64,000 nucleotides of DNA from Forficula auricularia (taxonomy: Eukaryota; Arthropoda; Insecta; Dermaptera; Forficulidae). The notes beneath the pieces are model-generated. The model worked only from the letters and a program-made list of their open reading frames with translations. It searched no databases and was not told the origin of the DNA. The translations under genes and the position numbers were made by a program. Of the stretch, positions 3,166 to 62,772 are shown in pieces. The stretch's first letter is position 1. Each line of letters opens with the position of its first letter. Location of the stretch: NCBI GenBank assembly GCA_024734495.1, contig JALMQS010000303.1:23188-87187 (forward strand), in the 5' to 3' direction.

Positions 3166-3213
3166 ATATTGATTGTTATATTATTAAAATAGATACAAAA
3201 ACATTAAATAAAA

Positions 3214-3251
3214 CCTAAACGTTTCAGGAGAATTTCTCCCTTTATCAATGG
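3214..3251 (-). ncRNA. Hammerhead-like motif with U3-A8 core
   Basis: Minus strand: CCA, then UUGAUAA in place of CUGANGA (both C3 and G8 changed, to U and A, which can still pair), one extra A, a 6-bp stem II with loop AAU, GAA, ACGU, U, and a stem I strand with one bulge. Sense orientation relative to the MSK transcript. Confidence 0.5.
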
Positions 3252-3315
3252 AAGTTTTATTTATTTATTTTTTATTTATTTTCATTGATGTTCAATTTTT
3301 AACCATTTGAAAATT

Positions 3316-3353
3316 CCATTGATGAAAGGAGAAATTTTTCCGAAACGTTAAGG
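3316..3353 (+). ncRNA. Hammerhead-like motif, opposite arm
   Basis: Plus-strand partner of 3214-3251. The core reads UUGAUGA (U3 with G8 retained), then a 5-bp stem II, GAA, ACGU and U. Likely weakened by the U-G core pair. Confidence 0.4.
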
Positions 3354-3657
3354 TTTTTTTAAAGGGTTTGTATTTATTTTAAATACTATATAGGTATATA
3401 GGTAATTTATTTGTTAGACTAGAGTTTCGAAGGTTTATGAATCAACAGCTGCTACTCTAGGCAAAACAAAATCTTTTCAATGATGAAACTAACTTACCAA
3501 ATTGAGAAGAAATAGATTTATATAAAAACAATTTTATCTGAAACTTTGGCTTATCCGTGTTTGTCAAAAATATATGATAGTTTTATCATTTTCAAAATAT
3601 ATATCAATATTCTATTTTATAATTTAATAATATAATTTTGTAAATCTTGAATTTATG

Positions 3658-4168
3658 GTGCTTAGGAACTTGGAATTGAAAAAAATCAACAATTTGAAAG
3701 CAGCGTTTTGTCTCTTTATCGAGACTTTCTCAAGCTCTTTAAAAAACAAACAAAATTACAAAAAAATCTCTTAGCAAGAAATGTATTAATTTTAAATTTA
3801 TTGTTTCCCGTTGGATTTAATAAATACATTTTCTGTAGTAAATATAGATGATTATAAATAAGGTTGATAATAAATAATTCAGTTATCTTTGAGATCTTAT
3901 AATACACCGGTCTCAAGGATAACGCCACATTAATTTGTATCAATTTTATTTATAACTAAGTTATGTACGTTTTGTAATATTTGGGTAAAAATTGTATTTA
4001 TTAAATCCAACATGAAATAATAAATCTAATAGGTTTAAAATTGTATATATTATTAAGCAATTTATTTGCAATTTTGTTAATTCGTTATATATCTTGAGAT
4101 TAAAGAGACGAAACGTTGCTTTCTAATTAAGTGTTTTCCATTTTTCCAGAAGTACAACTCCCTAAGAA
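3658..4168. mobile_element. Diverged foldback with hammerhead-like arms
   Basis: Long imperfect inverted repeat. The left block around 3696-3739 and its complement around 4093-4123 include gaaagcagcg and cgttgctttc. Inner arms share atttattaaatccaac. Each arm keeps a different part of the motif. Confidence 0.65.
3696..3739 (-). ncRNA. Hammerhead-like motif, damaged
   Basis: Minus strand: AAGAGC (stem I), UUGAGAA (U3 and A8), one extra A, perfect stem II GUCUC/GAGAC with loop GAUAAA, AAA instead of GAA, ACGC, U, then GCUUUC closing stem I with five pairs. The G12 change and altered stem III should impair cleavage. Confidence 0.5.
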
Positions 4169-4976
4169 ATCTCATTTAAAAAACATAATTTTTAGATATT
4201 TATTTTATGCAGTATATTTTTAAAAATAAATAAATAAATAAAACACTCCGCAGATTCGCAGACCTAGGTTCCCTACTTTTTTCAAAAATAACAATTTTAT
4301 AGACACTAAATTAATTAAAAACTACTCACACTAAGCTACATTTATGAATTTTTACAGAAAATGTATAGGTTAATACCGCGCTATTTTTCTATTTCTATGG
4401 AAAATATTTTTACAATATGTCTCTCACTGTCATTATTGTGATAAGATATACAATAAATGCGCACAAAGTAATACTTTATTATGTTCACTTTTAAATATAG
4501 GTATGTTAGGAAAAAATTTGATCTATTATTATTCAGGTACTAAAATAAATGAGCCTGAGAGAGAGAGTAGTTATTAAATCTAAAACAATAAGAGAACCTT
4601 TATTACTTTCACTATTATATTATACAGTGCTAAAGTTCAAAATTCACATTAAACATAAGTTGTCAAGTATTTTAATTTCGATTTTAGCCTGATATCTCAA
4701 AAATGATAAATTGAATAAAATGGAAGCCTGGGTAAAAATGTTAATCTCATTTTTTACCTCGACTATTCTCGATTTTATTATCATTAACAGGACTTCAAAA
4801 TAAGTAACCTATTGCTCTCATCGTCTCATCTTCACTCATTAAAAAAAAAAACATTACAAATACTTGAATAAAAGATTTCACTGTCGATGGTAACAGAATT
4901 GTTTTTATTTTAGGTTAAAAATAAAATAAAATGAGAGAGTCTTCTGTTTTTTAATAAAATAATTTTTAATTATTTC

Positions 4977-5019
4977 TAGAGACTATAGTTTCGAAGGCAT
5001 TGCCTTCATCATCAGTCTA
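4977..5019 (-). ncRNA. Hammerhead ribozyme-like motif, complete
   Basis: Minus strand, 43 nt: stem I strand UAGA; core CUGAUGA; one extra U; stem II GAAGGC/GCCUUC with loop AAU; GAA; stem III ACU-AU-AGU (three pairs, 2-nt loop); C as cleavage-site nucleotide (GUC); stem I strand UCUA. All invariant core positions are present. It is in sense orientation within the MSK intron. Confidence 0.72.
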
Positions 5020-5219
5020 TCACAAATATTTCAAATTAGTTACAAATTAAGATTTATACATAGAAAATTTTGAAAAATATATAATGTCTTTTTCTTCATG
5101 TTTCCTCTTGGGAGATTTGAATATAACTCAAGAGGAAACATGAAGAAAAAGACATTATATATTTTTCAAAATTTTCTATGTATAAATCTTAATTTGTAAC
5201 TAATTTGAAATATTTGTGA

Positions 5220-5262
5220 TAGACTGATGATGAAGGCAATGCCTTCGAAACTATAGTCTCTA
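5220..5262 (+). ncRNA. Hammerhead ribozyme-like motif, complete (opposite arm)
   Basis: Identical 43-nt motif on the plus strand in the right arm of the same foldback. Both arms therefore keep an intact core, three stems and the GUC site. Confidence 0.72.
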
Positions 5263-5459
5263 GAAATAATTAAAAATTATTTTATTAAAAAACAGAAGAC
5301 TCTCTCATTTTATTTTATTTTTAACCTAAAATTACAAATACTTTTTAAATTGAAAGTTTCTTTTTGCTGAGAGTAGCAGAATTTTTATAAATTAAAGGAG
5401 ACAATAATAAAAGAGTGTGTCTTCTGCTGGAAAAATAAATTTTTAATTTTTAATTTAAT

Positions 5460-5547: not shown

Positions 5548-5826
5548 GAAAAATTTGAAAAAAATACTTGCTTTAGAAATAGACAATGATACAGACTGTC
5601 TTGGAGATGAAATTAGCTTGAATAAAAATCAAAAATATTTACGACATATTATTTTTCTCTAAAAAATTTTCAATAATATTAGAAAATGAGTTCATATCTG
5701 ACCTTTTGTAATTGAAATTTTTTTTCATAAAGAGAAACAAAGAGGTTGTCCTCTGCTTGATGCAAATAAACATACACACATATATATATCAAAAATCTAT
5801 ATCTGTAAATATATTATTTATTTGTT

Positions 5827-5867
5827 TGAGACTATAGTTTCGAAGACTTGGCCTTCATCATCAGTCT
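5827..5867 (-). ncRNA. Hammerhead-like motif
   Basis: Minus strand: AGA, CUGAUGA, extra U, stem II GAAGGC/GUCUUC (one G-U) with loop CAA, GAA, stem III ACU-AU-AGU, C, then UCA. The core is intact, but stem I has only two clear pairs. Confidence 0.55.
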
Positions 5868-5960
5868 TTTTTAATAAATATTATTTTTCATGGGGTCAGT
5901 ATCGCATGGATATTGAAATTTTATTGATCTTTACTTAGACGAGAGCCAGTTAAAATTAAT

Positions 5961-6000
5961 AATGATGATGAAGGTCAAGTCTTCGAAACTATAGTCTCAA
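5961..6000 (+). ncRNA. Hammerhead-like motif, core mutated
   Basis: Plus-strand partner: AUGAUGA (C3 to A), stem II GAAGGU/GUCUUC, GAA, ACUAUAGU, C. Stem II and stem III persist, but the C3 change should abolish cleavage. Confidence 0.4.
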
Positions 6001-8507
6001 ACAAACAAATAATATACTTATATTCAGATATATTTTAAATGAGAAAGAATTCAATCTTTAGGACAAATTCTAAGATTTTAGTAGAAATATTATTATTTTA
6101 TTTCTCTTTTAAAATACAACTTGGTTAATCTGAAGCCGAGCTGATTTTTTGAAAAACATTCCAACTATTTTCAAAAAAAAAAGATGCTCAAATCTTTAGT
6201 TTTATACAGATATATATTTTAGATATACCTATATTAGTATATGTTTATTTGCATCAAGCAGAGGACAACCTGGTTGTTTCTCTTTATGAATCAACAACTC
6301 TCCTACTCTCGGTATAATAAAATCTTTTCAATTGAATTTTTTTGTTTAAAATTTTGATCATTTCTAAAATTACTCTTTATTCTAAATTCCGTTTTTTTAT
6401 CTAAAATTTTAGGATTGAAAAAGTCAAAATTGTATCCCAGGTTAATTGAATGACTAGCTAGTATGACATATCTTGTTTTTAGATATTTTACAAAAAAAAA
6501 AAACAACTCTGTCTATAGGTATATACCATATATATCTAATGTTTTGGAAAATTTGTATTTCTATCTAAATACATTTTTTCAAGAGCATTTGTATTTGTAA
6601 CTAGATGCTTTTAAAAGTGTATCTTTAACAACATTGGCTTATGTATTTCTTACAATTTAAGGCGAAAAACAATCAGGATTAAATTACGTTTGTTTTAAAT
6701 GAATCGGAAGTCCAAATCCATGTCAATTCAAATTTGTAAATTAAAAAAAAAATTGGACACGAATCACATCATAAATTTTTATTATTTTCATTTAATGTTC
6801 CTTCTAAAAAAATGAGTGTTTTATGAAAGTAGTGTGCACAGTACATATACACATACACATATTCTCATGTTTATTTAGTTAAATATTTTAGTCTAGACCA
6901 CTCAATTCGATTTCCCCAGATCATAAACTAACCATTAACTGTCACGCGTCAATTTAACCAATTCTTCAAATCTTGGAATTATTAAAGGGAGGAGATGGCT
7001 GCATTTTTTTTTTTTTTGAGTTTGTTTTATTATTATTATTATTATTGTTCGGTGAGGAGATCGATTTTGTTCAGCCCTGACCTGACCCACATTGTGATCT
7101 AGTTCCAAATAACATTCCCCCCTTGTCTCTTCTACTTCTACTTCTTGCTTCACTATTTATCATACACTATTCTACTATATAAAGGTTTATATTCTCAAAC
7201 TAGAATAAAATCGATTTCGAAATATTTATATTAAACAAGATGGCAATATTGGGAGTGAAAGTGAAATTTCTCTTGAACTATAAATATATACCTATATTTA
7301 AATTAAATACATGTATTACCAAATAGGAAACAATCTTTCGAGTAAATAGAATATATTATAAATATATCAAAAATTAAGGTAAAATGTCATTGGTAATTTA
7401 TATATAGGTAAATATATATAATCAAATTTAATTGATTTATTTCTGGTAAATGTTTAGATTTCAGATAACATCACTTACTTTTAAATAGGATATTTCTAGT
7501 AAAATATTGAATACATAACGTTTTGCACTTATAATAAATCTCTAGTACTTTGGAAGATATATCACATATCTGCCTGCTGACAATTATCCAATTCAGTTAG
7601 TAATAATACATATATCCGAGCCCGACTCGCACATGGCCACCTTATTATGATTTGGAAGATAACTTAATTTTTTTCTCATTTTTCACCATTTTTGTTACGA
7701 AATTTTAATTATTGATTATTTATTTTTAAAGTGCCTATCGAAAATTAAAGATTATTTATTTAATATAGCCATATATGGATATTTGGAAACTCAGAAGGTC
7801 GCACTGACTGAGATTTATCGATTTTCTAATGTTTTAATAATAATAATAATAATAATGGTATTTTTATTTTACCAAATCCTTTTATCATACATTCAAAATT
7901 ATATTTCTTCAATATTACTTGAAAGACTCTAGCATTCGGTATTCTAAACATTGAGTATTCTAATAGAAATATCACATCCAAAGTACTTAATCTAGTGGTT
8001 TTTGTCGAAATCATTCAAATATTATTAACGTAATCAGTATAACTATTTTGACTTTCACTGACATTTTTCGTTGCTACTGTAAAAAAATTATCGTTAGCAG
8101 AAACCGAATAATAGGTTTGTAAAGTATTTTAGAACAATTCAATGGTTGGGAAAAATGTGCAACGGTTTTGATTTAATTGGCATCGAAAGCCAATCAAATT
8201 GGGTCATCAATTGAAGGATGACGCGGGCTGCGTGTCAGGAACAAGGCTGCGCCAAGCCTCAAGGACTTGGCGAAGATAGGCAAGAACGCCGAAGACCTAG
8301 GTAGCCTAGACTAGCTAAACAGGTGAGCTTGCTGTTCGAACATATGATCAAACAACACTCAAATTTGGCCTAGTCACAATTTATTTAAATATCTCCTAAT
8401 AGAGACAAATTATTTAATTCAAACTATCTTGGTAACGCATGCAGTAACTAACGTACTAACAGACATTTTGAATTATGTTTCTTGTAAAATATAATTTTTT
8501 CGATATA

Positions 8508-11495: not shown

Positions 11496-12048
11496 TAGCT
11501 AATCCCAAGCTAGATGCCTAAATCTCGTGCATTCTGATTAAATTTCTAATTAATTAATTAATTAATTGCTAAAGCGGTTTCAGCCCAAACTTTTCTTTCT
11601 ACTCAACCACTAAAGTGCCAATTTCGCAATTAATATTTTAAATTAAAGAAACCAATTATCAAAAACAAATGATTTAGCAATTTTTAATCAGTGAATTGTT
11701 TGAGCTAGAAACTTTGAGTCAAATTTGAACACATTAGCTATAACCATTCAAGAACTCTTCATATAACGATTTGTTTTTCGTTCGTTTTTTGTTTTTTTAT
11801 TTTGATTTACAGTAATTTTTCATAAGTAATTTCTTGAATAAGTTGAAATATAATTTGAAGGCAAACTAATAGGCATGCGTTTATTGAATATCTACCTACT
11901 AATTTATTAATATACTTAAGTTCTTAAAAATTAATCTGTGCCTTACCATCTTTTCAAAAGTATTAAATAAATTGAATAGTTAATGTCCTTAATTCATAAA
12001 TAAATAATGCTAGTGATTTTTAAAATAAAACACATTTATTTTTGTTTC

Positions 12049-12090
12049 AGGCTACGTTTCGTCTCAATTCATCAAATCTTCTTCAGACCC
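12049..12090 (-). ncRNA. Hammerhead-like motif
   Basis: Minus strand: GGGU, CUGAAGA, extra A, weak stem II (GAUUU/GAGAC), GAA, ACGU, A, GCCU. Stem I has two G-C and two G-U pairs. The core is intact. Confidence 0.5.
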
Positions 12091-12280
12091 TATAATATTC
12101 ACAATCATAATACAGAAATCAGAATAAAAAAATTAAAATATTGCTAAGGTAGATAAAAAAAAATATTGTTAACAATTAATTAATCTCTTAATTTTGTATT
12201 CTGATTTCTGTATTGTTTTAAGTTTGTATAATATGTATGTTTTTTAGTTTTTAAGTTTGTATATGTAGGTATGTATTTTA

Positions 12281-12322
12281 GTGGCTGATGAAGTCTTAAT
12301 GAATCGAGACGAAACGTAGTCT
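12281..12322 (+). ncRNA. Hammerhead-like motif, opposite arm
   Basis: Plus strand: CUGAUGA, extra A, stem II GUCUU/GAGAC (five pairs, one G-U), GAA, ACGU, A. Stem I (GUGG against GUCU) has decayed. Confidence 0.48.
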
Positions 12323-14633
12323 GAAACAAATGACGTGTTTTATTTAAAAAGTTCAATTTCTCACTAGCTATATTTAGAAATAAATTAACTTGATCATCTT
12401 TTAGAGCACAAAGATATATTATTTTTATTAACGAAAATCAAGTATTACTATTCTTAAGAAAAAATGAAAAATTCTGAATCTTTACCCCATTTTCGAAATA
12501 CTTGACTATTAATATATAAATGTTGAAAGTTTTCCCCATACAATTTTGATTTTATTTCAAGGTTTCTTATTGGACATCGTGATTGTAGGTATAACTTATT
12601 TATAGAAAAGAAATTTGCTTTAGTCGTCAAACATTCTATTATTAACGCAATTGAAAAATCAATCAAAACCAACCACAATTCATTGCAAGTTTTTTATTTT
12701 TATTTTTTTTATTTTAAAAATTATAAAACAATTGGTGAAGCAATCAAAATAGCTTATTATTGTTATTAATAAGAACACGTACCTAATAACCTTGTAAAAT
12801 GTGATAATAAAATTACTAAATATCTATAAAATAAATAAATATTATCACAGTTGAATTATGTTCCAATTCCAAGGGCAGAAAATTAGAGAGTGTAAAAATA
12901 TGATTTTATTATTTCAATGATGAAAGAGGATTGATGATGAAAAATAAATTATTGAAATTCATTAGTTGCTAATAGTTCGAAAATTTAAAGATTTGAAGTT
13001 AATTTTTAAATTAATAAACTCGATTGATTTAGATTAATATAGCAATGATGAAAATTTCCATTTTTCGCGTAATGCGATACAAAAAATAACCTTTACATAA
13101 AAAACTATTAATCAGATATAAAAATACATTACAAAGTTAAGTTATAAATTGTAATTAAAAAAAAATACTATTAGTGTTTTTGAGGCCCCAATAACAAAAC
13201 TTATAGATTCCCTTCAGTACGTAAATTATTTCACGAATTTACTACGATTTTTACTATTTCATTAGGTTTGGGAAATTACTTTTCTTCCAAATTAATCATA
13301 TTTTTGATCCAAGTTATTTTATGAAATAAACAATGTTGGGTCATGAAAAAAAAAATGAATTCAAAAGAACTGAACTATTATATATGATACTAAACAAGCT
13401 TATTTATTATTATATTTATTATATTATATTATCCATAAGAAGTAGTCGCATTAATAATTTTCAAAATAATCTTTGAAAAAGATTTTAAATTAACCAACTA
13501 TTTCATTTGTATTATTTTTGTGAAAAAATTGTATTTATTTAATTAAATATACTATATATCAGTTCAAGCAGGGAATGCTGTTCAAAAAAGTATCCTTCAT
13601 TTTTTGAAATTTTATTTTAATCTTCGCTTTTTTTTGCAAATTTAATCGAATTCGGGATCATTTTAGTTATTTTTCAAATTTAAGATTAGATTTTCAAAAA
13701 ATATATTTTGGGACCTTCGCCCCAAACGAATACTGCTTTGTGTGAGTTAGGGTAGGGGTCAGAAATTAAATCTTGTAAATTAAACTCCACAGTCCTGAGA
13801 CTGGTAGAAATCGACCATTTTCCACAATGAATCAGCCTGTCCTATAAGAAAATCTAAAATTTCTTCTAATTCTATTGCTATAAGCAAGCATGACTTGTCT
13901 ATAAGATAGCACTCTTAGTTATTTCCGATCTTATATATTGAGAGCTCTTAGAAATGGATTAGTCCAAAGATTCCCGAATCATCTTTATTTATTCCTTTTT
14001 TATATTATTACTATTTAAATAGTTTCTCAGCGAGAACAATTTTTATTCGTATAAAACTCGTCTGAACATGTCTTTGATATGCTTGAACTGGAAGATATAC
14101 CAGGCAGGGTCAAACCTTTTTCGGAAAATCATTCATTTTAATTGCCCCTTGAAACTATGCAACAAATTTATTTCATTTCGAGAACCATTATACTCTCCAA
14201 AATAAAAAAAAAAATGTTTTTATTTATAGAAATATTTGAAATAACAGATAATAATTTGAAAATTTAAAGATCCTTAAATTTTGAAGTCGATATTTATGAA
14301 AATACTCTAAATGTCTGAAATTGTAGGGATGCGCCGCATCCATGGCATCCATGGACCGCACGCCAATGCTACATATACGTTTCTTTAAGTTATAATTTCG
14401 AAATATTTATTTATGCTTTTCAAGTTGGTATCTTTATTCAAAAGCAGGTCTCTTCACTGATTAAGGCAAACAATGGCTGTTTCATAATCAAAAGCCTTGA
14501 TTAGCTTTTTTTTAGAACAGCGCCTATTTAAGTTTCAAGTCAGTAATTGATTTCTATTGTTATTTCATTTATATTATTTAAAACAAGAGAAATTAAACAA
14601 GGGATTTAAATAAAATATTAAATTAAGACTTAC

Positions 14634-14717: not shown

Positions 14718-15199
14718 CTGAAAATTAATGAATAATTTATATATTAGCATTTCATCATTTTTCTTTCTAACAAATAAAAACGGAAGTTTCTAAATAAATT
14801 AATGGAAATCTTGTTATCGTGAAATAATTCAAGATTTCATTAAGGACCTTTGTATAGCAAGGTCTTCTAAGTCCAAAAATATTTTTTTTTAATGACTAAC
14901 TGTCTCTCTGTCAGTATATTTGTAAATGCAACAGTTACAAATTTTCAGGCTAGATAATTGAACCGATAATTAAGAAAACTTGAATTTAGGTACTTTGACT
15001 AAGTAACGCGGACTGTTTTTAAATTATTATTTTTTTATTGTATAGTATTTTATCCCAGTAATTACTTAGGTACTTTTTTTTTTAATTTTCCAAAATCAAC
15101 TTTAGCTATTTCGTTAATTAAATTTGAGGGAATACACACATACAAAATACTTCATATGTAAAAACTTATAAAATTATAATTTTTTTATGAAAATTCTTA

Positions 15200-15396
15200 G
15201 GACCAGTTGAATGTCGGTTTGTAAAGTCTTTAACAAAGGGTAAAACCTTAGAATACATATTGTGCCCGGCGGGATGGCCAATCAGATGAAAGTGTGTGTG
15301 TGTGTGTGATCTGATTGGCCATCCGGCTGGGCACAAGGTGAATTCTAAGGTTTTACCCTTTGTTAAAGACTTTACAAACCGACATTCAACTGTCCC
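15200..15396. mobile_element. PIF/Harbinger-type MITE, copy 1
   Basis: 197-bp foldback with terminal ggaccagttgaatgtcgg and its complement, flanked on both sides by TTA (15197-15199 and 15397-15399). A TWA target duplication with GG-CC termini is the PIF/Harbinger pattern. The loop contains a (gt)n run. Copies 2 and 3 are at 58512-58724 and 60979-61185. Confidence 0.75.
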
Positions 15397-16424
15397 TTAG
15401 ATTTGTTTTTGAAATTTTTTTAAAAAGTACTAGAATAACATACTCTAAAAAAGATGATACCCAACAATGGACGAATTTCATCACGGGGGAGGTAAAAGTG
15501 GCACTTCTCTCTCTGAGATTAAAAAATCCGTTAGATAAGTTAATTTGCCTAATATACCTATTTAAGTGGGTATTTTTTGTTTTGATACAATACTGTATTT
15601 TATATTGTATTATTTTAAAAAAATGTATAATAAATCGTTCAAAATGCATTCGGTAATGAAAATTCGTCTTTTGTTGGGGACCACATTTTTCATTAATTAT
15701 TTCTTTTAGTAGTACAACCTTGCTTAAATCGAAAAACAGATATTACAATAAAGTTTTCTTAATTCATTACAATATACTACTTTTTCTTCTTCCTTCTTTT
15801 GATATTATTAGCGATAATTGGCAATTATTTAGACGTTAATTAATATGTCGAAAATTGTCTTACGCGAATAAAATTTTCAATAACAGGTTGGTTCTCTTTT
15901 TTATTTGAAATCTTTTCAAGGATCCGGTCGGTTCACTTGTGTGTAACGGCATCCGCGAGAGCAAGTATTTAAAATATAGATATATAAAGGATAGAGAGAG
16001 AGAAAGCATTAGGAGACACCAGCTAACCTAGCTAACCAAATACGAAATTACTTTCCACAAAAGCAAAAAAAAAAAAAAGAAATAAATCGATTTGGTTTTT
16101 AATAGAGAAAGAAAAAATTCTCTTGGTTTTTCTTATTTTAACGAAAAGTCAACTCAGAATTTCTTTTTTTTTTTTTTTTTACTCTCAATTTTAAAAATAA
16201 AACATTTTTTCTTTTTTAACTTTAGCTGTTCTGATTTATTTTTATTTAGAAATATTCGTGTGAATTTGATTTTGATAATTAATTTGTGATTTAAAGATAA
16301 CAAACGGCCAATCAACACTTTGGAATGTACTCGTACAAGCAGGAAATGATTGAAGTAAATAACATTTTGCAATTGGTCTTACTATTGAGGAATGAAAATT
16401 AAAAAAAAAAATCTATTAGCAGTA

Positions 16425-16880
16425 CAGGGTGGGCCATAAAGATCTATCACATTTTGAAGAGGTATAAAAAAATGAAAAAATGTAACTAGAAAAAAACTGA
16501 ATATATTTTTGAAAAGAAGATAAAATATATATTTATTTAATGTGTATTAAACATTATCAGACAAAAAAAAAGGGGGGTGGGGGTAAAAAAATGAAAATTC
16601 TGGCCCTTTCGACCAAACTCAACCAAATTTTGTATACATATTCTGTGGGCCCCAAAAAGGATAGAAATGCAAAAACTAACCAAATTTTGTATACATAGTT
16701 TGGTCGAAAGGACTAGAATTTTCATTTATGACCCCTCCCCTTTTTTCGTCTGATATAATGTTTAAAAAACATAAAAAAAGATTAATGTTCTTTTCAAAAA
16801 TATATTCACTTTTTTTCTAGTTAGATTTTTTCATTTTTTTATACCTCTTCAAAATGTGGGAGATCTTTAGCCTCACCCTG
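16425..16880. mobile_element. Mariner-type MITE (TA-flanked foldback)
   Basis: The termini, cagggtgggcc at the left and the complement of caggg-tgaggc at the right, are flanked by TA at 16423-16424 and 16881-16882. Arms of about 120 bp (gaagaggtataaaaaaatga) enclose a second inverted pair, accaaattttgtatacata. No transposase ORF. Confidence 0.75.
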
Positions 16881-17752
16881 TATTTACTTTTGGGAGAGAC
16901 GGACTGGTAGAATTCCAATACAAAACTGATGGAAAGCAGCCCAAGGATAATGAAAAAAATCTCCAATAAAAGAAATTTATTGGAACTTTCATCCTCTTAA
17001 AAACTGATGTTTCAGAGGATCTTTCCTCCTTATTCAGGGTAAAAAAATATTTTTGAAGTGAAACTTCTTTAGCGACGTATCTGTTTTATTTTTTTGTTAC
17101 ACTAAAGGAGTAATGACTCAATAGAGGGGAAATGATTTTTTTTAAAACCCACTAATATTTCATGAAATTTATTAAAATTAAGAAATTTAAATTACTTCAA
17201 TAACGTCTAGGGCTATAGAAGTTTCACTTCTCCTCTGAGCTTATATGGATGAGGGTCACACACATTTTTGTAGAATATTCTCTAAAATGTATACATTTTT
17301 TTTATATTAAATGCAAATTTCGCAAAAAAAAGACACACATTTAATTGCCTATTCAACCAGGGTCACTGAAAATGGCATGGCTGTAATAAGTGACCCATCT
17401 AAAAACCATAATAAACTTTTAAATTAACATCGGATATCTATGAGATTGTGATTTCAAGGCCGCTAGGAATCAATTTTCTTGAATACTATCAAAGTATCTA
17501 TTAAAATATTATAGGATTGATTTAATTTACTGCTATTAATAAATCGCCCAAATTAAGTTGAATTATATAGAAGTGTAATCATTTTGAAAGTTATCACCTA
17601 TCGATGAGTTTAAGAATGTTTCAACTATTGCTCTCTCTCTCTGTACATTTCATATATTTTTTTTATGATAAAATTTGCAAATAAGTATCAAATTTTGAGA
17701 GTTTCTTAAAGCGAATTCGAATTTCAGCTAGCACAATACTCGGGTATATTAA

Positions 17753-21595: not shown

Positions 21596-21637
21596 TACTT
21601 GAGAACGATCGCAGAATAATTCTATCGAAACGTCGTA
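21596..21637 (+). ncRNA. Hammerhead-like motif with U3-A8 core
   Basis: Plus strand: UAC, UUGAGAA (U3 and A8), extra C, stem II GAU/AUC with an inner hairpin AGAAU/AUUCU, GAA, ACGU, C (GUC site), GUA closing a 3-bp stem I. No inverted partner arm is seen, although a related minus-strand motif lies 100 bp downstream. Confidence 0.45.
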
Positions 21638-21742
21638 GTTATATTGTATTATTTGTTCGTGTTCAATTAATAATTATAATTAATTAAGTGTGATTTAAAT
21701 AAAAATTCAAATTTTAATCTAATTATATTATTTGCCCATTTA

Positions 21743-22550: not shown

Positions 22551-22695
22551 TCTTAAGGATATAATTTTTTTACTATATCACTTTAGATTATCAGCCCTTT
22601 GAGAATTTAAAAAAATTATAATTATACAATTTAAAGGAATCGTAGCGAGTTGGACTTGACTTTAAATTAAATACAAAGTTTTTTATTTAAATAGG

Positions 22696-26727: not shown

Positions 26728-26806
<79 letters not shown>

Positions 26807-43270: not shown

Positions 43271-43309
43271 CATGCTTTATATTAGCTTCACCTGTATGTA
43301 TCTATCTAT

Positions 43310-43500: not shown

Positions 43501-43629
43501 TTATAAAAAACAATCAATAACATTTTTTCTTTTGTATCTATCAATATGACTTTTGTTCTGTTAAATTCCCGCAAACATTTCTCTATACAAATAATTAAGA
43601 CTAAAAAGTAAAAAAGAAAATTATATTTA

Positions 43630-43797
43630 AAAAAAACTAAAAAACATGCTTCTAAAAAGTACAAATAATGTAATACTTAATCAAAAAGCGTGGGGCACTT
43701 TGTCGAAATTAATAAAAAGTTTCTGCGCCCCACACTTTTTGATTAAGTATTACATTATTTTGTACTTTTTAGAAGCATGTTTTTTAGTTTTTTTTTT
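43630..43797. mobile_element. Palindromic MITE of about 165 bp
   Basis: Arms of about 68 bp (aacatgcttctaaaaagtac and onward, to gtggggc) with a loop of about 28 nt. Non-coding; the intact relative of 42941-43270. Confidence 0.8.
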
Positions 43798-43982
43798 TTT
43801 AATATAATTTATTTTTTTACTTTTTAGTCTTAATTATTTTTATAGAAAAATGTTGGCAAAATTTAACAGAACAAAAGTCACATTGATACATAGATCAAAA
43901 CATAGATAAATACATACATACATACAGGGGATGCTAATATAAAGCGTGTAAAAATCATTTTTTTTTCATAAAGTTAATTTTA

Positions 43983-44333
<351 letters not shown>

Positions 44334-45299: not shown

Positions 45300-45488
45300 C
45301 ACGCGATACTGATCCCATGAAAAATAATATTTATAATTAAAAAGACTGATGATGAGGGGTCAAGCCTTCGAAACTATAGCCTCGAACAAATAAATAATAT
45401 ATATACAGATATATAATTTCGATATATATGTGTGTATGTTTATTTTCGTCAAGCAGAGGACAACCTCTTTGTTTCTCTTTATGAATAG
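45300..45488 (+). mobile_element. Half copy of the 5726-6329 foldback
   Basis: Collinear with the complement of 5725-5905, from gcgatactgatcccatgaaa to tctttgtttctctttatgaa, with no inverted partner arm. It shows that one arm plus loop can exist alone. Confidence 0.75.
45343..45384 (+). ncRNA. Hammerhead-like motif, cleavage site mutated
   Basis: Plus strand: AGA, CUGAUGA, extra U, a shifted stem II (GAGGGG/GCCUUC), GAA, ACUAUAGC, C. The U before the cleavage nucleotide is C, so it is probably inactive. Confidence 0.45.
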
Positions 45489-47690: not shown

Positions 47691-47933
47691 ATTTTACTAT
47701 TAAGTAAGTAGGTGTTTTTTATTTGGTTAAATTAAATAAATATAAATAAAATATGAAACAAAAAACTATAAAATTACCAAAGCAACCTTTTTCCGCATTA
47801 ATTTCTAAACACATTAACAAATTAAAGCAATTTGAACCGCAAAAGTTAAATAATGTAAACAATAATTTCTTATATTAATTCTACATATTTAGAAAATTAT
47901 TTTATTATTTTTTGAAAAGAAAAAATGAATTGA

Positions 47934-47998
47934 GCACCCGACGGGATTCGAACCCGTGTCTCTCTGATGAGCGCCTTTACCAACTAGGCCACGGATGA
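47934..47998 (-). tRNA. tRNA-like gene with shortened anticodon arm
   Basis: Minus strand, 65 nt: acceptor strands TCATCCG and CGGGTGC (six of seven pair), D arm GCCT/AGGC with AGTTGG in the loop, and a perfect T arm ACGGG-TTCGAAT-CCCGT with box B. Only 14 nt lie between D and T arms (CTC/GAG hairpin), so a normal anticodon arm is absent. More likely a tRNA pseudogene or SINE head than a working tRNA. Confidence 0.5.
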
Positions 47999-48984
47999 TC
48001 CCGCCAGGAATGCTCTTATACATTAACAAATTTAAAGAGAAAAAATACACGAATACACGATTACAATACTTCGCCAAACTACAATATTCTTACGTAAAAA
48101 CAAGGTGAATAGTTAATCTATTTTATAGAAGCTACAATATTTAGATAGGAATATATTATCCTTGGGTAATTAATTACATTTGAATAAATGTCATTGATTT
48201 TTATCCGGGTTGAATATATAAAAAAATCTAAATTTATATTAAAAAAAAATTTAATGAAATAAAATTCATCCTAAACGGCTGATATTTTCCATGTTATTTA
48301 ATCATTTGTGGTGACACGTCATTTAAAATTCTTCTTCATTGGGTGGGGGGGATGTCGTTTAAAAATCTGACAACTTATTTCCTTTCATTTTTTTTCTTTT
48401 GAATATATTTCCATATTGCTTTAGAACAATTTTTTTGAATGCTTTGGTTTCAAATTCTCTTTCGGAAGTTAATTTTTCCTGTCTTGTATTTTTTTTATTC
48501 CCGAGTGAATGTCTTGGTTTTCAACTGGAGTCATTTTCAGCTTAGAGTATAGTTATAGGCTTGGTAAGACATTGCCCTCTCCTTTTTCACGCTTCCCGAA
48601 TTTTTATAATGAAAAAAAAAAGAAATAAAAAATCTAATTAAAAATCTTTTTTAAAAAAATTAATAAATGTATTCTAACGGTGCAAATATAATTTTAGTCA
48701 ATTTAAATTTAAATATGCGGATGATTTTTAAATGATAAGAAACGTTATTTATACGAAAGTGAATTTCATTTTAAATCACAAAGTAAAAGTTAGCGGAAAC
48801 TGATGCATCTATTTGAAAATTATGCAAGGGCTGATTTTTTATTGGGGATGCTCAAAAAATTATGAAATTTTTGGTTGTTTTCTCCAAGTAATTATATTTT
48901 ATTTTTGTTCTCGGATATTAAAATCAAAATAAGTACCATGGTATTATAAAGTACCAAACAATCATGAATTTTATGATTTGTTAT

Positions 48985-49036
48985 CCAATCGCAACGTTTC
49001 GTCTGTTCATTTAGACTTCCTCAGGGTTCTTTGATT
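48985..49036 (-). ncRNA. Hammerhead-like motif
   Basis: Minus strand: CUGAGGA, extra A, stem II GUCU/AGAC, GAA, ACGU, U, GCGAUUGG. Core intact (N7 is G); stem I weak. Confidence 0.45.
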
Positions 49037-49473
49037 CTTTTATAAACTTGAATTCGAATCGTTTTACATAATTCACTGCCAACATCATAAATATCATTTA
49101 TGTAATTTATACAAGCTATTCAAGTCTAAAACCTGCAATTCATTTGGTTTTCAAGTTGAATAGCTTGTATAAATTGCATAAATCATAATTATGATGAATA
49201 CATATGTAAGAATTGTAAAAAAGTGTGTAAGTCGAATTTCGTGTAAAATTGAATAAGTATGCTGAGATGTTGTCCTTTTTGTCTAACTCAAAGGATCAAC
49301 TGGAAGGCCATAAAAAAATGAATTTTTTTACTAAAAATTTGCACTTTACATAGCAGTTTAAACTTTGAAATCGCTCACCTAAAAAGTTACTAAATATGAA
49401 TTACACACTTATTCACAATTCTTGTAGATATGATGTTGGCAGTGTATTGTATTATATTTATAAAAGAATTAAA

Positions 49474-49519
49474 GAAGCCTGGAGAAGTCCGAATTAACAG
49501 ACCAAACGCTGGGATTGGA
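49474..49519 (+). ncRNA. Decayed hammerhead-like copy
   Basis: Plus strand, clearly homologous to 49636-49685 but with a deletion in the core (CUGGAGA) and CAA for GAA. Confidence 0.35.
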
Positions 49520-49635
49520 TAATAATTGTTTGATCCTTTGGACCATGATTCTCATTTTGATTTTAGTATCCGAAAGCAAAAAATGAATATAATGACTTAA
49601 ACAAAAAGATTCGAATTTTAACCTTATAAAAGAAT

Positions 49636-49685
49636 CCAAGAATGCCTGAGGAAGTCCGGATGAACGGACGAAACGTTGTGATTGG
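49636..49685 (+). ncRNA. Hammerhead-like motif, good stem II
   Basis: Plus strand: CCAA, internal loop, GC; CUGAGGA; extra A; perfect stem II GUCCG/CGGAC with loop GAUGAA; GAA; ACGU; U; GU then UUGG closing the outer stem I. Confidence 0.55.
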
Positions 49686-50392
49686 ATAATAAAAATTATA
49701 AAATTCATGATTGGTCCTTTATCCCTTGTTTCTGATATTGATAAATTATAGTTAATTAATTACTTAATAGTATATTAAAAATTATTTATGATGATATTTT
49801 CTATAAAAGTCGAGCTTATGATCTTTTCCTGAATGGAATTTCGGTGGTGTCTCTTTATGAGGTCCTTCTGAATTCCTTTTTTTTTTTTTTTTTATAAGAT
49901 TGAACTAAAGTGAAAAAGCTTTGGAGTCGGTGTGGATAGAGCAAGAGAGGGGGGGCAACGACCGTCTCCAGCTCCAGCTCCAGGGGGGTCTTTGACTCCA
50001 CGGAGACCTTCACCCTAAGACAGACAGACACCACTTCCCGAGGATATCAGCACAGGGAGCCTTCAGCCCCATGGGGCGCTCCACCCTCTCGCGAAGGGCA
50101 GTTCAATGCACCCGCACCCTCACGGCTCCTCCCAAGATTCGAACAAGTTAGTTATTTATCCGTCCAAATGCATATGATATGATATCTGTCCTGGGAAAAG
50201 CATGGAAACCATTTGGCGTAATTCCAAGGAATTTAAAAAAATAAAAAATACACCTATTTCAATTTCAATGCAGTGAGTATCAATACATCATTCGAAAACA
50301 GATAAATTATCCTACGCAGTAGATTTGCCCTTTTTATTTTCAATTTATTTGGAATACATGAATTGGCATCTTCATTATAAAGTACATTACAC

Positions 50393-55502: not shown

Positions 55503-56330
55503 TTAATTAATCAAAATGTATTTATTTCAAAAGTTTTTTTAATAATCTTTGAATTGTAATATGTTTATCAGAATAAAAAAACACAAAGAAAATAGCTATC
55601 TCATTTATTTATGAAAACAATACTAATAATATTTGAACAGGTGGGAATGTTTTTCTGTTGACTTGTTTGATTATCTAGGATTTTAATCCGGATGTATTTT
55701 TAAGTGAAATTGTTTTCTTTCCCCTCCCAATGAGAATAAATGGATGAATGAAAAGAACGAGAGTCCAAAAGAAAAGAAAGACTCTGCAGACAAGCAGACC
55801 AAGAGACAGGAAATTATCCGCTACGGCTTAACTGAGTAACTATAGCTGAGCTAGATAGCGCATAGCTGTATAAAAAGAAAAGAAACCGTTCATTTCACTC
55901 CACGTGCTGAGTGTTTTTTATTTATTTATTTTTTTATTTCACTTCTCACGCAATGCGCCTTCCACTTACGGACAAACAGACAGACAATGCTCGCATAAAA
56001 AATAACCAATGGATTCAATGGGAGAATTTCAATTGAAAAAAAAGGTTATTGGGACAATATTAGGACTAACTTGGAATTTAGAATATCTTAATTAAAATTA
56101 TTTCATATTTACTCTGGGTAGGAAATAATCTTAATCCCTTTGAATACACTTACAATTAATCCGATTGATACTATTTTATTTTTAGCAGGAAAATCTATTT
56201 TTATATAGATTATATTACTAATTAAAGTGAACGTTTCTTTTTGCCGAGAGAAGCAGAAATTTTATAAATTGAAGGAGACAATAAAAGAGTGTGTCTTCTG
56301 CTGGAATTATAAATTTTTAGTTTATTTATA

Positions 56331-56374
56331 ACGAAACTAGAGTTTCGAGAGCTTTGCCCTCTTCATCAGCCTAT
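56331..56374 (-). ncRNA. Hammerhead-like motif
   Basis: Minus strand, 44 nt: AUAGG, CUGAUGA, extra A, stem II GAGGGC/GCUCUC (one G-U, loop AAA), GAA, stem III ACU-CU-AGU, U, UCGU. Core intact; stem I weak. Confidence 0.55.
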
Positions 56375-56407
56375 TGTACATGCATTAATTCCTGTGAATC
56401 AATTGTA

Positions 56408-56454
56408 ATAGACCGATGAAGAGGGCAAAGCTCTCGAAACTATAGTCTCGTTAT
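56408..56454 (+). ncRNA. Hammerhead-like motif, U4 mutated
   Basis: Plus strand: AUAGA, CCGAUGA (U4 to C), extra A, same stem II, GAA, ACU-AU-AGU, C, UCGUUAU. Stem I pairs AUA and GA across a 2-nt bulge. The U4 change should reduce or abolish activity. Confidence 0.48.
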
Positions 56455-57889
56455 AAATAAATTAAAAATTTATAATAATTCCAGCAGAAGATACATGTTA
56501 TTGTATCCTTCAATATCACTAATTATTCAATTATTAATTATCATTTTGGTTCTTACTTTCAACTGCTGAAAAATGCATGAAAATAATTAAGTTATCGATT
56601 TTTGGAATCGAAATGCACCATATATAAAATTAACACTTTTAAACCATATATGTATTTCGATGGCAATATTATTTTTAAGTCTATTATATGTTTGTGTGTC
56701 TGGATTTAGACGAGACAACTTAAGAAGGAAAAGTCATAGAAAGTTCGTTCTTGTGCTAAAATGTTTATATTCCCAATGCGGAGAACTGATTTTAGGCTCT
56801 CTAGCTTCAGATCTTCCGGTCAAAAAAATGGAAAAATGATATTTTTTGATATTTAAATCCTTTTCTATAGTAACAAATTCTCAAAGAGTCAAGACCCAGA
56901 CTGGCCATCGCAATACTTCCCCATTATATTCTATAGAATATAAATGTGAAAGTAAAAAATAGATAAGAACAGGTGTGTATTGCATTATTCACCGAAACTG
57001 CAAACAGACTACAGAGTTTTGAAAAAATTTCACTTTTTCTTCTAATTTTATGTTTTTAAATTAAATATCGAAAATAGTCCAAAAAGTTGACGCTTTTGTG
57101 TTTTTTTTTTTATAAATTTTCACTCATTAAAATTTAAAGAAGAGGAAAAATAACTTTGATTTCAATTCGGTATTTGACAATAGCTCAAAACTCAACAAAT
57201 GACGAAATGATTTTCAAGAGAATAAGAAGAAAAAAAACTTTCTTAAAAGTGTCCTTTTGACATGGATTTTCCTGCTAGGCAAGCAAGCAGGAATGAATCA
57301 CTTAATTTATTTGCGAGTGAGAAAGAGAGGGTGAATGCCTTCTCAAGTGAAGTGAATTTTTCTCTTTTAATTTAAATAAAAGCAGATCTTTGACGTAGAA
57401 AGGCTGGGCTGGCTAGGTGACGTCCTTGCCGCAGGCGGGCTTCTTCTCTTCACCTGCCTGCCTGCCCTCTGCAGACGGGCCCCTTATCTCCAACACATGT
57501 GTATGGTATTATATGCAGCAGAGATCTACGCCGAGATCATCATTTCACTCCTATTAGCGTCCATTCATCCTTTCAAAGGAGAACCAACGGCATATGGAGA
57601 GGAGAATATATTTAATAACAATTCTGGGTGGGTGGACACCAAATGACCTTTACTTTAATAACATAACAACATTGAACTGGGGAATCCTTCAGGGTTTTAC
57701 CACCCACGGTTAAATTAGAAAATAGATTAAAATTTTATTTTTAATTCACCATGCTTATATTATAATTCCGAAACGGTTTTCATGAGATTTTAGGTAGTAT
57801 TTCATCATTCGCGTCCATATTTTATTAAATATTTTAAAATCGCAGGGAAGTGGACAAAAAATCAAACAACAGAGTTAGTTATTCAATTT

Positions 57890-57928
57890 ACCAGACGTTT
57901 CGTCACTTTATTGAGACTTCATCACTGG
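57890..57928 (-). ncRNA. Hammerhead-like motif, C3 mutated
   Basis: Minus-strand arm: GUGAUGA (C3 to G), extra A, stem II GUCUC/GUGAC, GAA, ACGU, C, UGGU. Otherwise matches 58080-58119. Confidence 0.48.
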
Positions 57929-58079
57929 CTCATTCAATACAACTCTTTGTCAAAAATCTCTCAACTATAAGACAGCCAGCAATGAACATTTTCCATTAAA
58001 ACACAATTAAAGCATTTTAAAAACAATATTAGATTGTCTTATCCTCACATAAAATAAAAGTTAATGTTGTATTGAATGA

Positions 58080-58119
58080 ACCACTGATGAAGTCTCAATA
58101 AAGTGACGAAACGTCTGGT
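58080..58119 (+). ncRNA. Hammerhead ribozyme-like motif, complete
   Basis: Plus strand, 40 nt: stem I ACCA/UGGU; CUGAUGA; extra A; stem II GUCUC/GUGAC (four pairs and a U-U mismatch, loop AAUAAA); GAA; ACGU; C (GUC site). All core residues present. Confidence 0.65.
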
Positions 58120-58511
58120 AAATTGAATAACTAACTCTGTTGTTTGATTTTTTGTCCACTTCCCTGCGATTTTAAAATATTTTAGGTAGTGTTTGATGAG
58201 AAATAAGAAATTTTGAATGAATTTCACAATTTGTCACTAGCTTTAAATTTAATTGGAGAAAAAAAAGTGAAATTTTTCAAGAAATGGTACACTGTAGTTT
58301 AGGTGAATAATGCAAAACATACCTACGTGTTCGATTGTTTATTTTATTTTATTTTACTATAGAAACGGATTAAAATCTTTAAAAAATCATGATTTTTTGC
58401 ATTTTTAGCCGGGATATCTGGAACTTGAAAGCTCAAAATCTAATCAGTTGTCCGCATTGTAAATTCAAAGATTTTAGAACAAGAACGAACTTTCTACGAT
58501 TCACGTTCTTA

Positions 58512-58724
58512 GGACCAGTTGTATGTCGGTTGGTAAAGTCTTTGTAAAAGTTGACAAAGGGTAAAACCTTAGAATTCACATTGTACCCGTCCCGATGGCC
58601 AATCAGATGACACACACACACACTTTAATCTGATTGGCCATCCCTCCGGGCACAATGTGAATTCTAAGGTTTTACCCTTTGTCAACTTTTACAAAGACTT
58701 TACCAACCGACATACAACTGGGCC
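58512..58724. mobile_element. PIF/Harbinger-type MITE, copy 2
   Basis: 213 bp flanked by TTA (58509-58511 and 58725-58727). Termini ggaccagttgtatgtcgg and complement. Arms of about 95 bp, loop with (ac)n. Confidence 0.75.
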
Positions 58725-58869
58725 TTAGGATATCGTGGGTATCTGAATCCAGACACACATACAGAAAAAATGATTTTTCTCTTAGCTCCAGACATTTTTA
58801 AGCACTATGAGAAAAAAAATTTGAAAATTTTTAAATGAATTCAATATTAGGCTCCCGGGCCTACCGATT

Positions 58870-60939: not shown

Positions 60940-61555
60940 GCTGTTTACCAGGAAAGATATTTCTGCTGAAACCACTAAGGGCCGGTTGTATATCGGTTGG
61001 TAAAGTCTTTGTAAAAGTTGGTAAAGGGTAAAACCTTAGAATTCACCTTGTACCCGACCGGATGGCCAATCAGATGACATGAGCTTTTATCTGATTGGCC
61101 ATCCCTCCGGGCACAAGGTGAATTCTAAGGTTTTACCCTTTGTCAACTTTTACAAAGACTTTATCAGCCAACATAAAACTGGCTCTTAGATTACATATTT
61201 TAATGAGATAAACACATCAGAAAGTACAACTTTTCGACCCCTATTTCTGGAGTAGTTTTCAAGGAGAGCTAGATTGAAAAGGCTGATTTTGGTTTTCAAT
61301 TTTTTGGGACGATAAGATCAAGACAGTGAGTCCAAGATGTAAAATCCAAAAGCTCGAAATATTCAAATTTAAATAATTGCATCTTCGAGCTTTCAAAAAA
61401 ACACAAGAATAACAAATGTCATTCAGAATTATTTAATCAAGTATCATAAAAAACGTAAGAAAAACGTTGTTCATTCTAATGAGTTCATCTCATTAAAATG
61501 TGTAATCTAAGTGGTTTCAGCTGAAACCTCTTTCCTGTTAAAAACCTTCTTCCTA
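60940..61555. repeat. Inverted repeat split by a Harbinger-type MITE
   Basis: accaggaaagatatttctgc plus attacatattttaatgagat on the left are matched, joined and inverted, at about 61482-61555. The left arm is interrupted exactly by 60979-61185, so the right arm preserves the empty site (ccacttagattac). Confidence 0.68.
60979..61185. mobile_element. PIF/Harbinger-type MITE, copy 3
   Basis: 207 bp. Terminus gggccggttgtatatcgg and its diverged complement. Flanked by TAA and TTA; the empty site in the partner arm supports a TTA target duplication with one later substitution. Confidence 0.72.
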
Positions 61556-61767
61556 TTAAGAATTTCTTAGGAACTAGAACGAACCATTAAAATTTCGTCG
61601 AAAATTCGTAACTTCTACTCCCTTATAGTGATGAAATTACATAGGAGTATCTAAGAATTTTACTTAGGGAAAGTGGTGTAGGTTTTAGGTGAAACATGAG
61701 ATTAATTAATCAAGTAAAGAGACTGTAGTTTCACAGTGAATGAAATAAAACTCAAAGAGGTTTATAC

Positions 61768-61810
61768 AAACTCAATATATTTCGGATTATTAGTCCATCA
61801 TCAGGAGTTT
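61768..61810 (-). ncRNA. Hammerhead-like motif, 6-bp stem I
   Basis: Minus strand, 43 nt: AAACUC, CUGAUGA, extra U, short stem II (GGA/UCC, loop CUAAUAA), GAA, AUAUAU, U, GAGUUU. Stem I is six perfect pairs; the core is intact. Confidence 0.6.
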
Positions 61811-61875
61811 ACAGATTAAAAACATAGGAGTATCTTAAGAATTTTACTTAGAGAAAGTGAAAGTTTTTAATCTGT

Positions 61876-61918
61876 AAACTCCTGATGATGGACTAATAAT
61901 CCGAAATATATTGAGTTT
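61876..61918 (+). ncRNA. Hammerhead-like motif, identical opposite arm
   Basis: Plus-strand copy of 61768-61810 without differences over 43 nt, so this foldback may be recent or homogenised. Confidence 0.6.
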
Positions 61919-62772
61919 GTATAACCTCTTTGAGTTTTATTTCATTCGCTGTGAAACTACACTCCCTTTACTTTATTAATTAGTATCTAAGAACTTTAAA
62001 TTTGGAAATTAATTAGAGTTTGAGGATTCGCAAACAATCATTTTGTCAAAAATTGCTAAAATTCTTAGTTAAGTTTTATAGTGAAGCGTCGGTTATGTGT
62101 ACCCATTTAATTTTGCTGCCTCTTGATTAAAAAATCTGTAAAAATTCAGGAAAGTAGCTTTTTGTGTGTACTTTTGAGGGCTGTTATAAAATACGAATTT
62201 GAAAAGACAGATAAAATTACTTCCCCTCTTGTATGTTCTTACAAATTATTTCAAATTATAAATTCGATTCCTTTTTATTTTAAATAGCTGTATATTAATA
62301 CATTCTATAATCTATACTTTTCCAAAAGTATTTAGGGTGAAAGACCTCTTTTATTTGAATCGTGATCAATATTTCCAGATTGAGGATTGAGAAGAAAGGG
62401 TCATGAAGGTTCAATCAGGATTTCTTGTAAACTATTAGAACTAAAATAAGGAAAAACTATTTCTTTTACAATAAAAATTTGATAGTTTAAGTTTATTGAG
62501 AGAGACATTTCAATTTACAAATGAAAAATAAAAATTACAAAGGCTCGAACTGCGTTCACCGCATATGGAAATGATCAGTGAATTTATTTTTTATTATAGG
62601 ATGCATTGATGCATGATATTATTTTCTTCACTAGTGAATAAAAATATTTTTATAAACAAATAAAATTTGATTAAGTTAGCTATACTATGCGAGTTTTCAC
62701 TCAATTTGTCTTGTGGCCAGAAAAGAAATGCTAAAGTTCCTACAAGGCTATGTAGAAATTTTGAAATTTTCT

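Follow-up and report, generated by a model that had tools for sequence, protein, structure and literature searches.

A 64,000-nucleotide stretch of the Forficula auricularia genome (contig JALMQS010000303.1, positions 23,188 to 87,187; hereafter the window) holds a series of foldbacks with hammerhead ribozyme motifs in their arms. With a confidence of about 80%, we interpret these foldbacks as non-coding insertions from several lineages of endonuclease-bearing Penelope-like elements (PLEs), in which two pseudo-long terminal repeats (pLTRs) stand head to head, each with a minimal type I hammerhead. The sequence itself displays the motif and its outward polarity, a tail and target-site duplication (TSD) in part of the set, and, in one family, truncation on the side of the centre with fixed outer ends. 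Our confidence is set at this figure because the search for reverse transcriptase (RT) fragments covered just 10 of 175 open reading frames (ORFs) and because the TSD test was designed with the pattern already in view. Since no copy shows the ORF of a PLE, we describe the foldbacks as PLE-derived and not as PLEs proper.

When CTGANGA is read on both strands, it occurs at 31 sites, and in a series of these it is followed by a single additional base, one helix, GAA, another helix of very few pairs, H and the returning strand of stem I. We searched for this layout with a descriptor (stem I, CTGANGA, 1 nt, stem II, GAA, short stem III, H, stem I) that required at least 2, 3 and 2 bp in stems I, II and III. 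The window contains 12 matches, 9 of them with a stem I of at least 3 bp, compared to a mean of 0.05 and a maximum of 1 in 200 dinucleotide shuffles; the looser pattern CTGANGA..GAA gives 31 matches where 6.5 are expected. Replacing the 1-nt spacer by 0 nt (stem I at least 2 or at least 3 bp) or by 2 nt (stem I at least 2 bp) leaves no descriptor match in the window. All 12 matches fall in foldbacks, spread over 10 of the 22 tested. A sequence-only reading of the window had proposed this layout and had suggested that shuffled foldbacks scoring equally well would speak against it; 1000 sets of shuffled and rebuilt foldbacks contain no match. The five copies that it had singled out as the best (4977-5019, 5220-5262, 38225-38277, 58080-58119 and 61768-61810) indeed have every core residue.

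The 22 foldbacks were hand-picked, outside simple sequence, from a self-comparison of the window, with 48878-49713 counted as a single composite that includes 49083-49196. Palindromes that are short or of simple sequence (19769, 24312, 26404-27074, 29901-30033) are not among them, nor are inverted repeats whose two copies are separated (such as 5724/6205, 28951/29402, 34326/34731, 38659/39441 and 61185/61462). An alignment of the 12 motifs with MAFFT (A1) misplaced the stems, so we instead built a gapless covariance model, R1, from one motif each of three families (22730-, 49646+ and 58084+). By the descriptor or by R1 at an E-value (E) of at most 0.1, 13 of the 22 foldbacks carry a motif, and a fourteenth, 43.3, is weak (E 0.39). 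The nine that neither search recovers are this weak case (43311-43498), two truncated relatives recognized by sequence (29308 and 43024), and six related to the others by neither motif nor tail (8.5, 15.2, 16.4, 43.5, 58.5 and 61.0 kb). The motif-bearing and related elements, named by their position in kb, are as follows, with hammerheads as predicted and strand in parentheses.

3177-3390: decayed foldback 3.2; motifs 3210-3256 (-) and 3311-3357 (+), T at C3, R1 E 0.085 and 3.2.
3691-4128: decayed foldback 3.7; motif 3694-3741 (-), R1 E 1.1e-6.
4853-5343: element 4.9; TSD 4853-4865 and 5331-5343, a 13-bp perfect repeat ATTACAAATACTT; tail 4866-4906; inverted arms 4907-5332, 99% complementary, with an 18-nt centre.
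4981-5015 (-): complete minimal hammerhead in the left arm of 4.9, by descriptor; stem II 6 bp, stem III ACTATAGT, stem I 4 bp.
5224-5258 (+): complete minimal hammerhead in the right arm of 4.9, by descriptor.
5798-6032: element 5.8 of the 4.9 family; hammerhead 5830-5864 (-); related sequence with a tail-like block to about 6320 (by eye).
12018-12350: foldback 12.0; motifs 12045-12094 (-) and 12277-12324 (+), R1 E 0.0085 and 4e-4.
22631-23036: foldback 22.6; arms 22631-23011; hammerheads 22699-22730 (-) and 22904-22951 (+, R1 span); possible tail 23012-23036; TSD not found.
25691-26048: foldback 25.7; arms 25691-26007; hammerhead 25790-25821 (-); tail 26008-26048 resembling that of 61.7; TSD not found.
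29308-29591: truncated foldback 29.3 of the 4.9/43.0/56.3 family, with no ribozyme; TSD not found.
35681-36083: foldback 35.7; arms 35687-36047; TSD 35681-35692 and 36072-36083; right-hand tail 36048-36071; hammerhead 35759-35787 (-).
38130-38453: foldback 38.2; arms 38183-38436; TSD 38130-38142 and 38441-38453 (1 mismatch); tail 38143-38182; hammerhead 38235-38268 (-).
42971-43155: element 43.0, truncated, with no ribozyme; TSD 42971-42984 and 43142-43155; tail 42985-43023; foldback 43024-43147.
43311-43498: foldback 43.3; weak motif 43359-43405 (-), R1 E 0.39; candidate TSD in simple sequence; tail on the right.
45346-45381 (+): solitary motif of the 4.9 family that fails the descriptor; second arm not found.
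48878-49713: composite of one inverted copy (motif 48985-49031, -) and two direct copies (49472-49518, +; complete hammerhead 49646-49677, +).
56212-56525: element 56.3; TSD 56212-56224 and 56513-56525 (1 mismatch); tail 56225-56267; foldback 56268-56514; hammerhead 56335-56369 (-).
57787-58194: element 57.8; TSD 57787-57802 and 58179-58194 (1 mismatch); tail 57803-57826; foldback 57827-58182; hammerheads 58084-58115 (+) and, decayed, 57886-57933 (-, R1 span).
61646-61998: element 61.7; TSD 61646-61662 and 61982-61998 (1 mismatch); tail 61663-61702; foldback 61703-61982; hammerheads 61774-61804 (-) and 61882-61912 (+).

R1 recovers families other than its own, including 3694- (E 1.1e-6), 35751- (2.3e-5), 38227- (3.8e-5) and 12277+ (4e-4), and spans E 1e-6 to 0.09 over the loci at 3.7, 35.7, 38.2, 12.0, 5.5 and 3.2 kb. 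The weakest of these, at 3.2 kb (0.085) and at 5.5 kb (0.027, outside the detected foldbacks), have T at C3 and in some copies A at G8. The model is not significant for the 4.9/56.3 family (E 2.4-3.7), 25.7 (3.9) or 61.7 (0.19), which have a different stem III and rest on the descriptor. One or the other search, with R1 at E of at most 0.1, recovers all 14 loci that the sequence-only reading had named. Among the 16 R1 matches at that threshold, 87.6% of cells are paired against 53.5% in shuffles, and the covariation score is 0.743 against 0.199, a value equalled by none of 500 shuffles; some foldbacks contribute both their arms, so that not all rows are independent, the three model sequences are among the rows, and the alignment was fitted to the structure, so that the result leans in favour of the motif. 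Sliding the partners by 1-3 columns drops pairing to 31-41%. One of our five measures does not discriminate, since pairs changed on both sides number 8 compared to 6.8 in shuffles (128 of 500 as high). The variation in stems I and II is compensatory, which supports the earlier claim that pairing is kept while sequences differ. Together, the descriptor counts against shuffles, the R1 matches and the covariation lead us to conclude that the motifs were selected as RNA structures while the elements were active, with single copies now decayed in many cases.

A chance resemblance within AT-rich palindromes would find its support in Rfam, which reports no hammerhead in the window at the gathering cut-off, for 121 bases around 58.1 kb, or even at E 10, using a copy that presumably contains the hammerhead models. 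All 12 descriptor matches have one nucleotide between A9 and stem II. As a control, viral contigs were scanned for the hammerhead pattern with A or T at this place, which gave 18 loci (L001-L018), 15 of which have, in addition, a C at position 17 and pairing in both stem I and stem III; the pattern itself demands the insertion and therefore does not measure its frequency, and the viral motifs are predictions. Fourteen of these loci were given to Rfam, including 11 complete three-stem motifs (some near-identical), and at the gathering score it recognized none of them. Insertion after A9 is thus compatible with a full, if predicted, hammerhead architecture, and the silence of Rfam counts only weakly against our motifs because the 11 complete viral motifs with the same insertion go equally unreported. 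Given this parity, the match counts in shuffled windows and shuffled foldbacks, and the covariation, we consider chance close to negligible. The AGTC..GAC form of the pattern has no match in the viral contigs, and a slightly looser pattern run on genome contigs gave 29 matches in bacterial records, where about 20 were estimated by chance. MicroRNA-like Rfam matches at E 10, below gathering scores and mostly on foldbacks, were taken as inverted-repeat artefacts.

The orientation of the motifs is uniform. In all 13 motif-bearing foldbacks the left-arm motif lies on the minus strand and the right-arm motif on the plus strand (2 x 2^-13 = 2.4e-4; 14 of 14 with the weak 43.3), placing the 5′ side of each ribozyme towards the centre in the head-to-head arrangement of inverted pLTRs. 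Published work describes the Penelope plan as inverted pLTRs, most commonly head to head, with palindromic junctions, an optional 31-bp tail on one pLTR and TSDs of 8-10 bp (PMC3846280). The 48.9-49.7 kb composite, with one inverted and two direct copies, has the parts of a Penelope insert. Stem III is self-complementary (ACGT, ACTATAGT or ATATAT) in 7 of the 10 elements with descriptor matches, a count favoured by the descriptor's demand for two pairs there, and such a stem suits predicted cleavage as dimers. Animal non-LTR retrozymes, which are circular-RNA elements with type I hammerheads, are likewise small, AT-rich and non-coding (PMC7229834). We think it highly improbable that the foldbacks are retrozymes, as their motifs are minimal and stand in inverted pairs, and, where a retrozyme would show tandem repeats of a canonical type I hammerhead unit, no tandem array listed for the window contains the motif core.

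Motif-like sequences also occur elsewhere in the window. A solitary motif at 52278 (+) has stem II and GAAACGT with G at position 17, and is predicted to be inactive for that reason. At 21599-21640 (+, by eye) and 21776 (-), where no foldback was detected, two degenerate motifs converge, opposite to the usual polarity.

The borders of the foldbacks also favour a PLE origin. A TSD search with no condition that repeats abut the arms returned many AT-rich chance repeats, and for that reason we turned to a stricter test with random placements. Six elements (4.9, 38.2, 43.0, 56.3, 57.8 and 61.7) carry 13-17 bp direct repeats that differ at no more than 1 position, one copy lying at most 6 nt from the end of the right arm and the other 24-43 nt beyond the left arm, while 35.7 (12 bp) and 43.3 (weaker, in simple sequence) show the mirror image. 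A one-sided tail with a TSD of 12-17 bp scores at least 10 in 8 of 22 foldbacks and in 5 of 400 random placements, a contrast that is somewhat flattering to our interpretation because geometry and threshold were chosen after the unconstrained search had shown the pattern. No foldback reaches this score among the six that share neither motif nor tail with the others. Tails are kept within families, and an ATG-containing block is common to those of 57.8, 35.7 and 22.6. In frames chosen by eye, the tails of 61.7 and 25.7 read MFHLKPTPLSL and MFHYKPTPNSL, and those of the 4.9/43.0/56.3/29.3/3.4 family read around LLPSA, where two leading Leu codons recur in five of five elements through different codons. 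The tails may be the start of a reading frame, which would fit a PLE origin because the Penelope pLTR plus tail covers the first ORF codons (PMC3846280). A 2024 paper calls the one-sided tail unique to PLEs.

These borders also bear on whether the foldbacks are miniature inverted-repeat transposable elements (MITEs) or other foldback DNA transposons that acquired a hammerhead in their terminal inverted repeats. Being short and non-coding with long inverted repeats, the elements have the general look of MITEs, as do some of the motif-free foldbacks (16.4 and 15.2/58.5/61.0 kb). A DNA transposon should be flanked by a TSD abutting both arm ends, whereas the eight foldbacks with a TSD have one copy 24-43 nt off the arm end with the tail in between. 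The common polarity and motif in elements with differing arm sequences (by eye) and the fixed outer ends with truncated centres are also contrary to a MITE, and we give this origin very little credence.

Members of the 4.9/56.3/43.0 family have their outer ends and tail in common and vary at the centre. Elements 4.9 and 56.3 contain the ribozyme and upstream sequence, 43.0 begins downstream of the ribozyme, and 29.3 and 3.4 keep little beyond the pLTR end or tail. Fixed outer ends with a varying centre fit target-primed reverse transcription with 5′ truncation. On the minus strand, the left copy of 43.0 begins (at 43087) precisely where the 56.3 ribozyme is predicted to cut, with homology opening at TCGTTATAAATAAA, the base after predicted cleavage (56.3: ..ACTATAGTC / TCGTTATAAATAAA; 43.0: ..TCGTTA / TCGTTATAAATAAA, the slash marking the cleavage point). 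We estimate the chance of this exact coincidence at about 2%, given some 166 start points and three truncated elements; the other two, 29.3 and 3.4, do not start at the cleavage site. This single case suggests that a ribozyme-cut RNA can be reverse transcribed. In the four elements measured (4.9, 22.6, 57.8 and 61.7) the arms extend 69-139 nt past the predicted cleavage site towards the centre, so the ribozyme-bearing elements would have been copied from RNA uncut at that site, in agreement with the Poseidon element PAc in vitro (PMC11167929).

The truncated centres matter for how the foldbacks formed. Full-length PLEs (inverted pLTR, direct pLTR, ORF, direct pLTR) could have lost the ORF by recombination between direct pLTRs, like solo LTRs, a route that competes with our account of formation and not with a PLE origin. 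It predicts exactly the order tail, inverted pLTR, direct pLTR within a TSD, and solo pLTRs have been reported (PMC3846280). The centres of 43.0, 29.3 and 3.4 lie inside the pLTR or tail, unlike a product of full direct-pLTR recombination, and centres vary among copies of the 4.9/56.3/43.0 family. We regard deletion as possible but somewhat doubtful.

We infer that the PLE-derived foldbacks arose by copying, using a PLE enzyme encoded elsewhere. Target-primed reverse transcription would start within the RNA, in the tail just beyond the 3′ end of the pLTR, and proceed through pLTR and ribozyme to the RNA 5′ end, where a turn-back by self-priming or template switch would make a second arm that ends, tail-less, at the pLTR border. 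With its very short, often self-complementary stem III, the ribozyme would cleave best as a dimer, in centre-initiated or tandem transcripts, and 43.0 was possibly copied from a ribozyme-cut RNA. Read-through transcripts carry the antisense arm first, which would lock the ribozyme in a hairpin: across five strands of three elements, the predicted pairing probability of stem II is 0.000 in the full foldback RNA compared to 0.40-1.00 in a 110-nt outward RNA. According to this model, host read-through RNA should be safe from the ribozyme because the hairpin absorbs it.

Several observations weigh against a PLE origin. Fourteen of the 22 foldbacks have no TSD of the type described, including the clear motif carriers 22.6, 25.7, 12.0, 3.7 and 5.8, and the motif-free foldback at 8.5 kb scores 9, just below the threshold of 10. 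Tails differ between families, stops break the tail frames of 3.4 and 29.3R, and in 29.3 the tail block is present in both arms. One of the five local folds, that of 61.7 (-), has a minimum-energy structure that is not a hammerhead. The longest open frame listed is 145 aa, in a listing of frames that do not run off the window ends. The ORF of a PLE (RT plus GIY-YIG endonuclease) was not found, as Pfam applied to 10 of the 175 ORFs of at least 55 aa identified two kinase exons only; RT fragments were not sought in the other 165.

Comparison with known systems places the set close to endonuclease-bearing PLEs. The Pen families of A. vaga (PMC3846280) and Poseidon PAc (PMC11167929) likewise have head-to-head inverted pLTRs, a one-sided tail, a short TSD, 5′ truncation and the grouping of one inverted with two direct copies, and PAc has its hammerhead near the ORF start. 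The window elements differ in that no ORF is seen, arms are often 60-210 bp, TSDs measure 12-17 instead of 8-10 bp, and several lineages appear as foldbacks within 64 kb. Minimal type I hammerheads of PLEs and their dispersed copies in animal genomes (Cervera and de la Pena 2014; Lunse 2017; as cited in PMC7761336 and PMC10085705) similarly have almost no helix III, occur in pLTRs or dispersed non-coding DNA and are presumed to act as dimers, with dimer cleavage attributed to Lunse 2017; set beside these, as represented in the citing papers, our motifs have one more nucleotide separating A9 from stem II. Type I hammerheads are also found in two further kinds of retroelement, retrozymes and Terminons (PMC7229834, PMC6431247); the former are tandem circular-RNA units and the latter giant telomeric elements, and neither forms inverted pairs.

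The link to Penelope suggested by the sequence-only reading is strengthened by polarity, tail and TSDs, whereas its proposal of a possible new type of non-autonomous retroelement gains no support, as the elements are built like the inverted pLTRs already known from PLEs, minus the ORF (PMC3846280). The short elements may be mobilised in trans or may be copies that were truncated or suffered deletion. Its description of the foldbacks as unrelated is right in that there are several families, but they have one architecture in common, and tails within families. We consider it unlikely that the foldbacks form a genuine non-autonomous retroelement class of their own, which a PLE enzyme would make out of short pLTR RNAs that in some cases were freed by the hammerhead. 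Here the ribozyme would set the RNA 5′ end, the cDNA would snap back, the outward ribozyme would be silenced in read-through transcripts, and 43.0 would be the fossil of a cut template.

The surrounding window is AT-rich, with a G+C content of 25-32% across its 64 kb. The best match of the ORF at 43983-44333 (-) is ribosomal protein S6 kinase alpha-5 (1vzo, E 8.7e-34), and the ORF at 31174-31485 (-) has a kinase domain at 29.8 bits, below the Pfam cut-off of 31.7. We infer that these exons, at 44.0-44.3 and 31.2-31.5 kb, are parts of one gene. The earlier impression of such a density in one gene can be followed in part only: between the two exons are 35.7, 38.2 and the 43.0-43.9 cluster, in which 43.0 and 43.3 are the sole motif-bearing or related foldbacks. 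Rfam places a tRNA at 47933-47998 (-; 42.9 bits), and ARAGORN with the bacterial code reports none.

Other repeats accompany the foldbacks. Foldback 16423-16882 has no hammerhead, and with its ends, TACAGGGTG..., it resembles mariner-like inverted repeats. Foldbacks 15192-15404, 58508-58728 and 60975-61189, in which no motif or tail was found, have similar outer ends and are probably one DNA-transposon-like family. Next to foldbacks at about 3100-3160 and 29600-29680 stand inverted copies of a short repeat with GGTTCGACTCCC-like sequence (by eye), possibly a tRNA-derived short interspersed nuclear element. A 165-bp inverted repeat, 91% identical (28951-29110 / 29402-29564), has one half inside the 29.3 foldback. 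Within 43142-43892 are nested inverted repeats, apparently insertions into insertions, with parts of 43.1-43.3 recurring inverted at 43.6-43.8 kb.

Earlier publications already describe inverted pLTRs, hammerheads within the pLTRs of PLEs, and dispersed minimal copies in their thousands (PMC7761336, PMC6155905, PMC3846280). Among the matches listed in the literature searched (titles and openings of abstracts, with most subscription journals outside the search), we found none that describes the dispersed hammerheads as carried by compact foldbacks that lack an ORF and stem from several PLE lineages. The role of the minimal hammerhead in PLEs has been called "still a mystery" (PMC7761336), and the PAc ribozyme is dispensable for insertion in vitro (PMC11167929). 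The set in the window is real and dense, and 43.0 is one detail that bears on this open question. With many foldbacks that each have a readable 5′ end at the centre, it could be tested whether the 5′ ends of insertions pile up at the ribozyme cleavage site. The foldbacks offer an origin for the dispersed minimal hammerheads of animal genomes, and the outward polarity that would hide their ribozymes in a read-through hairpin is a possible reason why so many are tolerated in or near genes.

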